NCBI RefSeq assembly: GCF_017114865.1
Contig: NZ_JADEYH010000012.1
Location: forward strand, 1-64,000
Length of the DNA: 64,000 bases
DNA from: Streptomyces verrucosisporus
GTDB lineage: Bacteria; Actinomycetota; Actinomycetes; Streptomycetales; Streptomycetaceae
Direction of reading: 5' to 3'
Translations under genes and position numbers: made by a program
The notes under the pieces: model-generated
What the model was told of the DNA's origin: nothing
Seen by the model: only the letters and a program-made list of their open reading frames with translations
The model's database searches: none
Shown: positions 24,795 through 35,381 of the stretch, one piece after another
Position numbering within the stretch: position 1 is the first letter of the stretch
Layout of the letters: each line of letters starts with the position of its first letter

Positions 24795-24807
24795 TCAGAA
24801 GCCGAAG
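24795..24807. other. attL core
   Basis: 13-bp core TCAGAAGCCGAAG, identical to attR. It follows mutM by 48 bp. Sequence to its left is chromosomal, and to its right is the attP arm of the element, whose first codons (AAG TGA) would finish the integrase gene in the excised circle. Confidence 0.85.
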
Positions 24808-24825
24808 AAGTGACGCGGGCCCTCG

Positions 24826-24837
24826 CTGACCTGGGGG
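24826..24837 (+). repeat. 12-bp putative integrase arm site, left copy
   Basis: CTGACCTGGGGG, identical to 34424-34435. In the excised circle the two copies would flank the core in direct orientation, 18 bp and 4 bp away, as expected of arm-type integrase sites. Confidence 0.5.
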
Positions 24838-24843
24838 CCTTCC

Positions 24844-24900
24844 GGCGACCAACGCTGTGACCTGCGGCTTACCCGCCGACGGTTGTCAACGTTGGTCGCC
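24844..24900. repeat. 11-bp inverted repeat near attL
   Basis: GGCGACCAACG (24844-24854) and its exact complement (24890-24900) with 35 bp between. It may bind Xis or Int, or be a hairpin. The interval 24808-25041 holds no convincing gene. Confidence 0.5.
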
Positions 24901-27489: not shown

Positions 27490-27840
27490 ATGGCGTCTTT
27501 CAAGATCGACCTGTCGACCGCTGCGGTGATCGTGGCGACCGCCCCGCAGCCGAAGATCGCGAACCGGCGGACCGGTGAGATCGCCACCGACCCGGAGACC
27601 GGCGCGCAGCTGATGACGGTGGGCCTGATGGTGGTGGACGACGGTGAGGCCAACCTGCTGGACAAGGTCACGGTGCTGGAGACCGGCATCACCGGGGAGC
27701 TGACCACCGGGGCGCCGGTGGGAGTGACCGGGCTGCGGGCGCGGGAGTGGGAGAACGTCTTCAACGGCGAGAAGCGGCAGGGCATCTCCTTCCGCGCGGT
27801 GGCCATCACCCCGATGGTCCCGGCGACGGTGCAGGGCTGA
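27490..27840 (+). CDS. small conserved AICE protein upstream of tra
   Basis: 116-aa soluble protein, beta-rich, without signal or membrane segments. It is the first gene of the forward transfer operon, with a GAGAGGAAG ribosome site, and ends 5 bp before tra. Similar small proteins precede tra in other Streptomyces AICEs as I recall, but their role is unknown. Confidence 0.8.
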   Translation: MASFKIDLSTAAVIVATAPQPKIANRRTGEIATDPETGAQLMTVGLMVVDDGEANLLDKVTVLETGITGELTTGAPVGVTGLRAREWENVFNGEKRQGISFRAVAITPMVPATVQG

Positions 27841-27845
27841 GCGCC

Positions 27846-29186
27846 GTGTCGAACCTGACCGCTGTGGTGCTGGTGGTCGCCGTGGTGGCCGGTGGCGGGC
27901 TGCTGGCTCGCCGCCGGTTCCCGGCCGCGTGCTGGGTGCTGGCCGGGTTGCCGGTGGCCTGGGTGCGGCTGCACCTGACGTATGCGGCCACGATGGAGGT
28001 GTGCGGGCTGACCGTCACCCCGTCGCGGGCGCGGGCCTTTCTGACCCGGACGGTGGCCCGGCGGGAGGTCCGGCCGGTGGCTCCGCGGATTGTGCGGGTG
28101 CGGCCCAGCGCGACGGGGCTGCGGGTGCGGCTGCGGCTTCCGGCCGGGCTGGAACCGGCGGATGTGGCGGCGGCCTCGGTGCGGCTGCGCCATGCCTGGG
28201 GTGTGCACGCCGTGCACGTGGCGGAGATCAAGCCGGGTGTGGTGGAGCTGCGGATGACCGGCTACGACGTCCTCAAGCGGGTGCGGATGCCGCGCCGGGG
28301 CCTGCCCACCGGTGCGCTGGTGGTGCCGGTGGCGCTGCGCGAGGACGGCACCCCGTTCGTGCGCGACTACCGGGCCATTCCGCACGCGCTGACGCTGGGT
28401 GCGAACCAGTCGGGCAAGTCGATGTATCTGCGCAACCTGATCACCGCGCTCGCGGCCCGGCCGGTGGCGCTGGTCGGGATCGACTGCAAGCGCGGGGTGG
28501 AGCAGCGCCGCTTTGGTCCGCGGCTGTCGGCGCTGGCCACCACTCCGGATGAGGCCTCCGGTCTGCTGGCCGCCCTGGTGGCGGTGATGGAGGAGCGCTT
28601 CGACCTGCTCAGCGAGCGGGGTGTCTCCGATGTCTGGGACCTGCCCGCCGAGCTGCGGCCAACTCCGGTGGTGGTGCTGGTGGATGAGGTGGCCGAACTG
28701 TTCCTGGTTGCCGCCAAGAAGGACGAGGCCCGGCGGGATGAGATGGTCACCCGTCTGGTGCGGCTGGCGCAGATGGCCCGCGCGGTCGGCATCTACCTGG
28801 AGATCTGCGGCCAGCGCTTCGGCTCCGACCTGGGCAAGGGCGCCACCCTGCTGCGCGCGCAGCTCACCGGCCGGGTGGTGCACCGGGTCAACGACAAGCA
28901 GACCGTCGAGATGGGGCTGAACGACATCGCCCCCGAGGCCATTCCGGTGGCTACCACCATCGCCCCGGACCGGCCCGGCCTGGCCGTGGCCGGGGACGCC
29001 TCCGGCGCCTGGTCCCGCATCCGCACCGTGGAGATCGCCCCGGACACGGCGGCGGCCGTCTGCCGCACCTTCGCCCACCTCACCCCCGACCTTCCGGCCC
29101 TCGCCGCCTGGCGGCCCGCCGCCCCGGCCGTACCGGATGCGGGTGAGCGGCCGTCGCTGGTCAAACCGGCCCCGGTCACCGACTAA
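27846..29186 (+). CDS. FtsK/SpoIIIE-type DNA translocase, plasmid transfer protein Tra
   Basis: 446-aa conjugation motor. Two hydrophobic segments near the N-terminus (about 5-25 and 30-48) anchor it, followed by an ATPase with Walker A GANQSGKS (about 184) and Walker B VVVLVDEVAEL (about 276). Known biology: TraB/TraSA-type proteins move double-stranded DNA between mycelia as hexamers. The GTG at 27846 follows the previous stop by 5 bp. Confidence 0.92.
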   Translation: MSNLTAVVLVVAVVAGGGLLARRRFPAACWVLAGLPVAWVRLHLTYAATMEVCGLTVTPSRARAFLTRTVARREVRPVAPRIVRVRPSATGLRVRLRLPAGLEPADVAAASVRLRHAWGVHAVHVAEIKPGVVELRMTGYDVLKRVRMPRRGLPTGALVVPVALREDGTPFVRDYRAIPHALTLGANQSGKSMYLRNLITALAARPVALVGIDCKRGVEQRRFGPRLSALATTPDEASGLLAALVAVMEERFDLLSERGVSDVWDLPAELRPTPVVVLVDEVAELFLVAAKKDEARRDEMVTRLVRLAQMARAVGIYLEICGQRFGSDLGKGATLLRAQLTGRVVHRVNDKQTVEMGLNDIAPEAIPVATTIAPDRPGLAVAGDASGAWSRIRTVEIAPDTAAAVCRTFAHLTPDLPALAAWRPAAPAVPDAGERPSLVKPAPVTD

Positions 29187-30405: not shown

Positions 30406-30753
30406 ATGTCGATGTTCCGCCCCACCTACCCGCCGCCCGACACCTACACCGCCCCGGCCATGCCCGCGGCCCCGTCCCCGTCCTCGGCCGTGCCGCTGGT
30501 CCCCGCCGACCCGGACCCGACCCCGGCCACCGCACCCGTGCCCGCCCCGGCTTCGGTGCCGCCCAGGCCGGTCCTCCAGCTCACCCCCGGCGCCCTGGTC
30601 ACCGTCGCCGCCGGTGGCACCGCCGCCGTCCTGGTCGTCGGCACGGTGCTGGTCTCCCTGCTCCTGGCCGTCGCCGTCACCGCCACCTCGGTCGCGGTCT
30701 GCGCGGTCGTCCTGCGCTCCCTGCTCAACAACCAGCACGGCCGGGGCCGGTGA
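30406..30753 (+). CDS. SpdD-like protein with one membrane segment
   Basis: 115-aa protein. A Pro/Ala-rich N-terminal half is followed by a single long hydrophobic helix (about 72-105, VTVAAGGTAAVLVVGTVLVS) and a short basic tail. It has an AAGGGAG site upstream. Similar to SpdD proteins, which act in intramycelial spread. Confidence 0.75.
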   Translation: MSMFRPTYPPPDTYTAPAMPAAPSPSSAVPLVPADPDPTPATAPVPAPASVPPRPVLQLTPGALVTVAAGGTAAVLVVGTVLVSLLLAVAVTATSVAVCAVVLRSLLNNQHGRGR

Positions 30754-30760
30754 TCACCGC

Positions 30761-31312
30761 ATGGACACCCACCACCTGATCGCCGCCGCCCTGCCCGCGC
30801 TGGGCTGGGCCGTCCACGGCGGCCTGCTGGCCCGCCGCCTGGCCAGTGCCCGCCGGGATCCGCTGACCGGGCTGCACACCCGCGCCGGATTCACCGCCCG
30901 CGCCGAACGGATCCTGGCTACCTCTCCGGCCGCGCTGGTGCTGCTGGTGGACCTGGACGACTTCAAGGCCGTCAACGACACCCACGGCCACGCCGCCGGG
31001 GACGCCATCCTGACCGCCACCGCCGACCGGCTGACCCGCTGGTGCGCACGGCACGGAATCGCCGCCCGCCTCGGCGGAGACGAGTTCGCCGCCGTCGTCA
31101 CCAACCCGGCCCGCACCTGCGGCCTGGCCGCGCTGCGCGAGGACCTGCGCCAGCCGGTCGCCCACGGCGGTCGCCTGCTGCCGGTCTCGGCCTCGGTCGG
31201 CTCCTGCTCCCGCACCGAGCTGCCGGTACCGACCCTGACCGACGCCCTGTCGGCGGCCGATGCGGCGATGTACGCGGCCAAGGGCCACGGCAGGCGCAAC
31301 ACCCACAACTAA
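30761..31312 (+). CDS. GGDEF-domain diguanylate-cyclase-like protein
   Basis: 183-aa protein: a short hydrophobic N-terminus (about 5-28) and one GGDEF domain. The metal-site Asp region LLVDLDDFKAVND (about 66-78) and the intact GGDEF motif (residues 105-109) are there, so activity is possible. The usual I-site RxxD five residues before GGDEF is absent, so no product inhibition is expected. It lies 7 bp after the SpdD gene and may couple c-di-GMP, which controls Streptomyces development through BldD, to transfer. Confidence 0.92.
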   Translation: MDTHHLIAAALPALGWAVHGGLLARRLASARRDPLTGLHTRAGFTARAERILATSPAALVLLVDLDDFKAVNDTHGHAAGDAILTATADRLTRWCARHGIAARLGGDEFAAVVTNPARTCGLAALREDLRQPVAHGGRLLPVSASVGSCSRTELPVPTLTDALSAADAAMYAAKGHGRRNTHN

Positions 31313-31407
31313 GCGGCTCCCGGGGCGGCCTCAACCGCCAAGTTTCCGCCGCCCCGGATGCCTCCTTTCCCTTCCAGATCCGCAGATCCGAAAGAGAGGA
31401 CCTCATC

Positions 31408-31590
31408 ATGCCCCAGCACGCTCCGCACCGGCCGATCTGCCGCGACTGCGACGGCTTCCCGGCCGTGGCCATCACCACCGGCACCCGCCACCGCGACGGC
31501 TCCCGCGTGACCGTCCGCGTGGTCTGCCCGGCCTGCCGAGGCACCGGCCACGCCCCCCGCACCGCGGCCCTGGTCCGCGCCGGGCGGTGA
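31408..31590 (+). CDS. small zinc-ribbon protein
   Basis: 60-aa protein with two CxxC knuckles (CRDC and CPAC), the second followed by RGTGHAPR as in DnaJ-type zinc ribbons. It has AGAGAGGA upstream and overlaps the possible GTG start of rep. No known function; small zinc proteins next to Rep are usual in AICEs. Confidence 0.8.
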   Translation: MPQHAPHRPICRDCDGFPAVAITTGTRHRDGSRVTVRVVCPACRGTGHAPRTAALVRAGR

Positions 31591-31598
31591 CCGCGCCC

Positions 31599-32984
31599 AT
31601 GACCGACGCCGCCACGCTGGCGGGGGTGGACCCGATCACCTGGCAGGACTTCCTGCGGGTGGCCGGGTCCCCCGGCTTTGACCGCTGGCAAGAGCAGGTG
31701 CGCCGCACCGGCGGCTGCGCCGACCCCATCCACCTGACCGGCTCCACCAAGACCCTCGACCGCATCACCGGCACCGTCCTGCACGCCTACTCCACCGATG
31801 GTGAGCCCGGCGGCCGCCTGCGGGTGGCCTGCGGCAACCGCCGCGCCTCGCGCTGCCCGTCCTGCGCCTGGACCTACGCCGGAGACACCTTCCACCTCAT
31901 CCGCGCCGGACTGACCGGCGACCGCTCCAAGGGCGTGGCCGAGACCGTCCGCGACCACCCCCGCGTCTTCGCCACCCTCACCGCACCGTCCTTCGGCCCG
32001 GTGCACAACCGTCCCGCCCGCGGCCGGTGCCGCTGCGGTGCCCGCCACCGCGAGAACGCGCCCGAGCTGGGCACCCCGCTCGACCCCGACACCTACGACT
32101 ACGCCGGGGCGGTGCTGTGGAACAACCACGCCTCCGAGCTGTGGCGGTACTTCACCATCTACCTGCGCCGGGAAGTCGCCCGCCAGACCGGACGGACCCA
32201 GAAAGCCTGCCACCAGGTGCTGCGAGTGGCGTTCGGCAAGGTCGCCGAGTACCAGCGCCGGGGCGCGGTCCACTTCCACGCCGTCATCCGCTTCGACGGC
32301 CCCGACGGACCCGCCTCCGCCCCGCCCCAGTGGGCCACCGTGGAGCTGCTGACCAACGCCATCCGCGCCGCCGCCGCCCGCGTCGCCATCACCGTGCCCG
32401 CCGCCGGCACCCAGCCCGCCCGCACCCTGCGCTGGGGCACCCAGCTCGACATCCAGCCCATCGGCGCCTTCGACGGCGGGGAGATCACCGAACAGGCCGT
32501 CGCCTCCTACGTCGCCAAGTACGCCACCAAGGCCGCCGAGACCACGGGCACGGTGGACCACCGGGTCGGCAGCGTCGAGGCCCTCGATCTGCTGGACGTG
32601 CCCGAGCATCCCAGGCGGCTGATCGCGGCCTGCCTCGACCTGCACCGGTTCTACCCGGATCGGAAGCTGTGGGCCTGGGCGCACATGCTCGGCTTCCGGG
32701 GCCACTTCTCCACCAAGTCGCGCCGCTACTCCACCACCCTCGGCGCGCTGCGCCAGGTCCGCGCCGACTACCGCGCCGCCGAACAACGCGCCGCCCTCGG
32801 CCTGCCCGATCCCGACGACCGCCCCGAGGCGACCGTGCTGACCGTCGCCCACTGGGCCTACGCCGGGCACGGCCACACCGCTGGCGAGTCCTGGCTCGCC
32901 TCCCAGATCGCCCGCGACATCCGCGCATCCCGCGACGCAGCACGCGAAGCACGCGCAGACCTCGAAGCACAAGGAGAGTGGTGA
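31599..32984 (+). CDS. rolling-circle replication initiator, RepSA-type
   Basis: 461-aa protein, near the 459 aa of pSAM2 RepSA. It has a zinc-finger pair RCPSC (about 88), the HUH motif VHFHAV (about 226) and the catalytic tyrosine motif YVAKYATK (about 304). This makes the element able to replicate as a circle after excision. A GTG at 31587 overlapping the previous stop is an alternative start. xis begins 2 bp after the stop. Confidence 0.92.
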   Translation: MTDAATLAGVDPITWQDFLRVAGSPGFDRWQEQVRRTGGCADPIHLTGSTKTLDRITGTVLHAYSTDGEPGGRLRVACGNRRASRCPSCAWTYAGDTFHLIRAGLTGDRSKGVAETVRDHPRVFATLTAPSFGPVHNRPARGRCRCGARHRENAPELGTPLDPDTYDYAGAVLWNNHASELWRYFTIYLRREVARQTGRTQKACHQVLRVAFGKVAEYQRRGAVHFHAVIRFDGPDGPASAPPQWATVELLTNAIRAAAARVAITVPAAGTQPARTLRWGTQLDIQPIGAFDGGEITEQAVASYVAKYATKAAETTGTVDHRVGSVEALDLLDVPEHPRRLIAACLDLHRFYPDRKLWAWAHMLGFRGHFSTKSRRYSTTLGALRQVRADYRAAEQRAALGLPDPDDRPEATVLTVAHWAYAGHGHTAGESWLASQIARDIRASRDAAREARADLEAQGEW

Positions 32985-32986
32985 CC

Positions 32987-33181
32987 ATGGCCCGTCCGCT
33001 CCCGGCCCGCTACCTGACCCCGGTGGACGTGGCCGACTTGTTCGGCGTGCCGGTGGAGACGGTCTACCAGTGGCGGCGCAAGGGCACCGGTCCCCGCGGC
33101 TTCCGGGTCGGCCGTCATCTGCGCTTCGACCCCGAGGACGTGCGGCGCTGGGTGGCCGAGCAGATGGGGGCGGCTGCCTGA
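32987..33181 (+). CDS. xis: excisionase, MerR-like helix-turn-helix (Xis)
   Basis: 64-aa DNA-binding protein of the winged-helix MerR/Xis type, with LTPVDVADLFGVPVETVYQW and the GFRVGRHLRFDPEDV wing. Its stop overlaps the integrase start in TGATG. Together with Int it directs excision. Confidence 0.9.
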   Translation: MARPLPARYLTPVDVADLFGVPVETVYQWRRKGTGPRGFRVGRHLRFDPEDVRRWVAEQMGAAA

Positions 33182-34512
33182 TGGCCGGACACATCCAAGA
33201 CCGCTGGTTCAAGACCGTGCCTGGTCCGGACGGCAAGCCGGTCAAGGTCAAGACCGCCCGCCATGGCAAGGGTCTGCGCTACCGCGCTCGGTACGTCGCC
33301 CCGGACGGCACGGAGAAGAGCCAGTCCTTCCCCGACAAGGCCAAGCGCAAGGCGGAAGCCTGGCTCGCCAAGATCGGGGCCGACCTGGCGCGGGGTGACT
33401 ACGTCGATCCGGCGTCGGGTCGTGTCACGTTCCGGGAGTACGTCGCGGACTGGATCAAGACGCAGACCACCGACCCGGCTACGCGGGGATCCGTCGAGAT
33501 GCGGCTACGGCTGCACGCGGTCCCGTACCTGGGCTCTCGGACGATGGGGACGATCCAGCCGTCGCATCTGCGGCTGTGGATGCGGCAGATGGAGGACGCC
33601 GGACTGTCCCCGGCCTACCGCCGGGTGATCTTCGCGCACGTCTCGACGGTCTTCACTGCTGCCGTGGAGGATCGCGTGATCCGCGAGAACCCGTGCCGGG
33701 CCCGGTCGGTCAAGGCTCCCCGGCCCGACCCACGCAAGGTCAAGCCGTGGTCAGAGGAACGTGTGATGGCGGTCCGCTCGCAGCTCCCGGACGGCTACCG
33801 CGCGATGGTCGAGCTGGCGGCGGGCTGTGGGCTGCGGCAGGGGGAGGTCTTCGGCCTGGCCGTGGAGGACCTCGACTTCCTCGGCGGCCTGGTGCACGTC
33901 GTCCGCCAGGTCAAGTTGCTGGACAACCGGCCGGTCTTCGCTCCGCCCAAGGGCGGCAAGGAACGGGACGTACCGCTGCCGGAATCCGTGGCGGCCGTCC
34001 TGGCCGACCACATCACGCGGCACAAGCCGTGCGAGATCACGCTGCCGTGGAAGACGCCGGACGGCCCGCCGGTGACGGCGACGCTCCTCTTCTCCAGCCC
34101 GACCGGGCTGCCGCTGGACCGGAACCGCTTCAACGATCGCGTGTGGAGGCCGGCACTTCGGGCTGTCGGTGTGCCGACGGGCCGGGAGAACGGCATGCAC
34201 GCGCTACGGCACTTCTACGCTTCGGTCCTCCTGGACGCGGGGGAGAGCATCAAGGCCCTGAGCGAGTACCTGGGGCACCACGATCCGGGCTACACCCTGC
34301 GGACGTACACGCACCTGATGCCGACGAGTCAGACGCGGACCCGTGCCGCTGTGGATCGGGTCTTCGGCGGCCCGATGGGTTCCGGTGACGGCCCGGAGAC
34401 GGCCCAGGGACCGGATCAGGGCTCTGACCTGGGGGATTCTCAGAAGCCGAAGTTCTGTGTCCACCAGGGGCCGCCCTCGGCGAAGTGCGCACCCACGCCC
34501 AGGGTCCGGTAG
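33181..34512 (+). CDS. int: tyrosine site-specific integrase
   Basis: 443-aa recombinase. It has an arm-binding N-domain, a core-binding SAM-like domain (about 80-180) and a catalytic domain with Arg in CGLRQGE (about 219), HxxR in HALRH (about 340-344), LGHH and Tyr in TYTHL (residue 376). The gene runs across attR: its last 19 codons come from the antisense strand of the host CAP gene. In the excised circle it would end after KPKK, giving 425 aa. The two forms differ only in the tail. Confidence 0.95.
   Translation: MAGHIQDRWFKTVPGPDGKPVKVKTARHGKGLRYRARYVAPDGTEKSQSFPDKAKRKAEAWLAKIGADLARGDYVDPASGRVTFREYVADWIKTQTTDPATRGSVEMRLRLHAVPYLGSRTMGTIQPSHLRLWMRQMEDAGLSPAYRRVIFAHVSTVFTAAVEDRVIRENPCRARSVKAPRPDPRKVKPWSEERVMAVRSQLPDGYRAMVELAAGCGLRQGEVFGLAVEDLDFLGGLVHVVRQVKLLDNRPVFAPPKGGKERDVPLPESVAAVLADHITRHKPCEITLPWKTPDGPPVTATLLFSSPTGLPLDRNRFNDRVWRPALRAVGVPTGRENGMHALRHFYASVLLDAGESIKALSEYLGHHDPGYTLRTYTHLMPTSQTRTRAAVDRVFGGPMGSGDGPETAQGPDQGSDLGDSQKPKFCVHQGPPSAKCAPTPRVR
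34424..34435 (+). repeat. 12-bp putative integrase arm site, right copy
   Basis: CTGACCTGGGGG, inside the 3' end of int and 4 bp before the core. Identical to the copy at 24826-24837. Confidence 0.5.
34440..34452. other. attR core
   Basis: Same 13 bp as attL. Read on the reverse strand it is the end of the CAP gene (the last base of a codon, Phe, Gly, Phe, stop), so the integrated element restores the host coding sequence exactly. Confidence 0.85.
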
Positions 34513-35381
34513 TCGCAGTTGAGGATGTTGGCGCGGTGGCCGGGGCTGTCCATCCAGGCGTCCATCACCGCCTGTGCGTCGGCCTGGCCGCGGGCTATGT
34601 TCTCGCCGCCGAGGTTGTCGATGCCCGCCGCCTCGGCGCGGTCCCAGGGGGTCTCGCCGTCGGGGCCGGTGTGGGAGAAGAATTCCCGGGCGGCCATGTC
34701 CCGGCTGAAATCCTCGGCCAGTCGGGCCAGTTCGGGGTCGGCGGTGACCGGCCGGCAGCCGGCCTCGGCCCGTTCCAGGTTGACCAGTCTCAGCACCTCC
34801 GCCTCGGCGGCCGTCTCCTCGTCGAGGGAGGGGAGGCCGGGCGCGGTGGGCTTCCGGGAGGAGGCGGAGGGCTCGCCGGGGCTTCCGGAGGACTCGCGGA
34901 CGGCGTCGTCGCCCGCGCCGTCCTTCCCGGCGGGGGGTGTACTGCCGCGTGACGGGGTGGGCTCGGCCGACTTCTCCGAGGGCGTGGCCTCCGGTTTCTC
35001 CGGCTCTTGGCCGCGCGAGGCCCCGGGGTCGGGGGAGGCGGTGCGGCCGTCGCCGGGGCCCGCGGCGGGGCCCTCTCCGCGGTCGTCAGGGGCCGGTGTC
35101 GCCGCGCCCTGGGTCCGCAGGTCCCGCAGATCGTCCGGGGCCACGCCGGAGGGGGAGGCGAACCCGCCGACGGTGTAGTCGCCGTTCGGGCCGGGCAGCA
35201 GTCCCGAGGCCACCGCCACGGCGCCCATCGCCATCGCGGCCGAGGCCCCGAGGAGGCCGGTGCGGACGGGGACGGCGCTCCGCCTGCGGTGCGGGCCGCG
35301 GTGGCGTCCGCCCGCCGCGTGGCGGTCGGAGGTGACGGGGGCCGGTGCTGGAACCGGTTCGGCGCGGCGGTGGCGTCCCAT
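34440..35381 (-). CDS. CAP/SCP-domain secreted protein (integration target)
   Basis: 313-aa protein. It has a basic N-terminus and one hydrophobic segment (about 42-62, export signal or anchor), a Pro/Ser/Glu-rich linker (about 90-180) and a C-terminal CAP domain (about 190-313) with FFSHTGPDGETPWDR, GGENIARG and SPGHRANIL. CAP proteins in bacteria are secreted and of unknown role. The AICE has inserted at its stop codon without altering the protein. Confidence 0.92.
   Translation of the reverse strand: MGRHRRAEPVPAPAPVTSDRHAAGGRHRGPHRRRSAVPVRTGLLGASAAMAMGAVAVASGLLPGPNGDYTVGGFASPSGVAPDDLRDLRTQGAATPAPDDRGEGPAAGPGDGRTASPDPGASRGQEPEKPEATPSEKSAEPTPSRGSTPPAGKDGAGDDAVRESSGSPGEPSASSRKPTAPGLPSLDEETAAEAEVLRLVNLERAEAGCRPVTADPELARLAEDFSRDMAAREFFSHTGPDGETPWDRAEAAGIDNLGGENIARGQADAQAVMDAWMDSPGHRANILNCDYRTLGVGAHFAEGGPWWTQNFGF

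Follow-up and report, generated by a model that had tools for sequence, protein, structure and literature searches.

Probable stop-codon loss carries an integrase reading frame through the attachment core of a pSAM2-like element in Streptomyces verrucosisporus

The element and its insertion site

The window, as the whole analysed stretch of 64,000 nucleotides of S. verrucosisporus contig NZ_JADEYH010000012.1 is called here, contains a 9.6-kb element flanked by mutM (fpg) and a gene for a CAP-domain protein. The element is bounded by two copies of a 13-bp core, TCAGAAGCCGAAG, one at each end (attL, 24795..24807; attR, 34440..34452), and these are exactly the two copies present in the 6.06-Mb genome. 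The host CAP-domain gene (34440..35381, minus strand; PF00188, E 3.8e-25) has the target site at its 3' end, and because its stop codon, on the minus strand, lies inside the attR core, integration restores the CAP 3' end. Empty sites, with contiguous mutM and CAP genes, occur in the related genomes G021 and G023, so that by comparison the predicted junctions are right; the site in G021 has a single core, TCAGAAGCCGAAG, at the CAP 3' end. The excised-form junction was absent from the viral contigs searched. Phages yielded no Int related to that of the window and no circle sequence, and a plasmid search returned two distant related Ints, with no circle sequence among them.

The genes of the element encode a GntR/UTRA regulator, an acetyltransferase, an FtsK/SpoIIIE transfer protein (27747..29186, plus strand; PF01580, E 8.9e-32), a DUF2637 protein, a RepSA-type replication initiator (31260..32984, plus strand; PF20199, E 2e-154), an HTH_17 protein that is a likely Xis and overlaps the int start (32987..33181, plus strand), and a tyrosine integrase. 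Int, an FtsK-like Tra and Rep between att repeats, with int adjoining one att site, is the arrangement by which AICEs were recognised, and the int/tra/rep/xis make-up matches that of the pSAM2-like AICEs (PMC3218068). On its predicted gene content, the element is thus a pSAM2-like AICE at the 3' end of a CAP-domain gene. The targets of most AICEs with a tyrosine integrase are tRNA genes, the pSLS subfamily excepted (PMC3218068). The present element differs from pSAM2-type AICEs in its target, the 3' end of a CAP protein gene, and in an int gene that runs through the core. About 570 bp of the element (30743-31314), overlapping most of an ORF with a GGDEF domain (30614-31312), are missing from the otherwise colinear elements of L033 and L034, which are introduced below.

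The integrase gene and its two predicted ends

The int gene (33181..34512, plus strand) encodes a tyrosine recombinase of 443 aa as integrated (Pfam PF00589, E 9.7e-20, residues 205-379). Its start, the ATG at 33181, shares sequence with the stop codon of the HTH/xis ORF upstream, and its end is the TAG at 34512; an alternative start was ruled out, since full-length relatives align from residue 1. The frame passes through the attR core at 34440-34452 as TCT CAG AAG CCG AAG and continues in the chromosome for 19 codons antisense to the CAP gene, followed by TAG (34453..34512, plus strand). In the circular form, where int would be joined to the sequence after the left core copy, it would end in AAGTGA (24808..24813, plus strand), giving a protein of 425 aa that terminates in SQKPKK. 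The first-pass annotation had read the same start and frame, the passage through the 13-bp core and both lengths, and we find it correct on each; that the predicted Int tails differ between the integrated and excised forms follows from the sequence.

Codon 413, CAG (34417..34419, plus strand), aligns with the TAG or TAA stop of 19 related elements and is the putative site of stop loss. Codons 414-424 (34420..34452, plus strand) derive from attP-side DNA and the core. About 34 residues separate the last residue of the Pfam catalytic match from the start of the extension. The structure predicted for Int from 12 sequences was of low quality over most of its length, with a mean pLDDT of 51 and values under 50 for residues 335-443.

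The DNA that the extension covers also carries a conserved motif, CTGACCTG, which lies between the int stop position and the core and is repeated across the core in attP; these repeats flanking the core are putative arm-type Int sites. The conserved repeat CTGACCTGGGGG, likely an arm-type site, adjoins the attR core (34424..34435, plus strand), and its second copy in attP is found at 24826..24837 (plus strand). Just inside the left end, at 24844-24900, there is a 14-nt inverted repeat (GGCGACCAACGCTG / CAACGTTGGTCGCC), possibly a terminator or a protein-binding site.

Where related integrases end

The 3' ends of int were read in frame in related elements from Streptomyces genomes. The counts refer to 25 elements, that of the window included, in which int adjoins the CAP-site core (attR); L120 and L108 were left out, as no CAP core was found beside their int. 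In 19 of the 25, int ends at one aligned TAG or TAA codon, 23 nt before the core, and the residues preceding this stop are usually DGPETAQ plus three more. Two others (L111 and L122) stop earlier, in another frame. Read-through is confined to the remaining four: the window, S. barkulensis (L033), Streptomyces sp. CNQ085 (L034) and G019 (L011/L113). At the stop position G019 has GGT, and the window, L033 and L034 have CAG, which a single base separates from TAG. Sequencing error as the cause of the CAG was ruled out, since the codon is common to three separately sequenced genomes. A maximum-likelihood tree built from the Int bodies unites the window, L033 and L034 with full support and sets G019 apart; because well-supported branches force two changes, read-through has two separate origins. 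The circle form of G019 would likewise end two codons past the core.

Both tails come from other sequence that happens to be read in frame. Matches to the antisense tail in relatives reach residue 442, and the tail aligns because it is chromosomal CAP-gene DNA, conserved as CAP is. The TGA that would close the circular form follows the left core in 14 of the 17 elements with a located left end; these include 11 of the 14 in which int stops short of the core. Since it is kept where int never reaches the core, this TGA is conserved as att DNA and not as the end of Int. Using the actual core sequences, we found that loss of the stop would carry int through the core in nine of the 19 elements that have it, and read-through is therefore an easy consequence of stop loss.

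Stop loss as the preferred explanation

We favour, with a probability of roughly 85%, the loss of a stop codon, the two tails being a by-product, most likely neutral, of att DNA that happens to follow int in frame. The usual int stop, 23 nt before the core, would have changed to CAG in the lineage of the window, after which translation of Int would continue through the DNA of the attP arm and core. Beyond the core, the chromosome would supply 19 codons of antisense CAP sequence and the circle AAG TGA, so that Int gains a short extension whose end is set by whatever follows the core. The direction of the change, its neutrality, and the actual translation and excision are presumed in this account, which is drawn from sequence comparison. 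Little effect of the extension would be expected, because it lies beyond the Pfam catalytic match and relatives end Int before it. Two features count against a neutral by-product: the extended frame is open in all three strains (window, L033 and L034), and the circle form of G019 has a matching end. In favour of it, the 12 codons of the extension (413-424), too few to test for selection, show non-synonymous differences only, one to two per pair, in contrast to the Int body.

In the Int body, codons 1-395, the window differs from L033 at 25 codons synonymously and at two non-synonymously, and from L034 at 34 and eight, respectively. Element and flanks could be compared on both sides with L034 only, L033 being without a left flank. 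Identity between the window and L034 is 94-96% in the element segments, 94% in the flanks and 90% in the CAP gene. Such similar divergence of element and chromosome fits vertical inheritance since a common ancestor, and so gives no hint of cycling between the integrated and excised states in this lineage. These figures would also suit a resident element that no longer excises, with a tail that is irrelevant and with the variation in the Int tail as early decay. We consider this unlikely, as the excess of synonymous changes is kept in the Int body, xis, rep and tra have open reading frames, and the two core copies do not differ.

Tail exchange in known systems and a possible switch

The first-pass annotation had proposed that the tail swap acts as a switch between integration and excision. 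The 425-aa circle form would then favour integration, and lower activity or instability of the 443-aa chromosomal form would make the integrated state more stable. Tail exchange as a principle is already known. In the Myxococcus phage Mx8, according to reviews, integration swaps a 112-residue C-terminus of Int for 13 residues and changes its activity (PMC6070905, PMC4701971), and in streptococcal ICEs at the rumA site att lies inside the integrase gene, and integration gives the integrase a different C-terminus and length (PMC4701971). As in Mx8 int/attP, the core of the window element lies inside the int reading frame and integration changes the C-terminus of Int. The two predicted proteins do differ, and the second lineage, G019, has the same arrangement. 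In contrast to Mx8, the exchange here involves one versus 19 residues past the core, and the change lies past residue 412, outside the Pfam catalytic match. The rumA-site ICEs differ in that they have a serine integrase and share the arrangement throughout, whereas here it is found with a tyrosine integrase and in a minority of the CAP-site elements only. We took conservation across related elements as the mark of an evolved switch, and found read-through in four of 25 elements, with two origins, as expected of a derived stop loss; in most CAP-site relatives Int terminates short of the core. With the TGA of the circle kept as att DNA and element and chromosome similarly diverged from L034, the proposed switch is not supported, and we rate it marginally below the non-excising resident element. 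Least probable of all is that, after stop loss, the short circle tail and the long antisense-CAP tail were co-opted, in parallel in G019, so that Int reports the integration state.

Read as stop loss, the locus is a further example of integration altering the C-terminus of an integrase; a limited literature search turned up no AICE described with this arrangement. It points to a simple route, in which a stop is lost shortly ahead of an att site and the att DNA happens to be free of stops in that frame, and it cautions that tail swaps of this kind can be accidental; they may also be a starting point for the evolution of switches such as the one in Mx8. A related element at a different attachment site (L012, in G200; core TCAGAACAGCCACAAC) also encodes an Int without the usual stop, which ends at a TGA right after TCAGAACAGCCACAAC.
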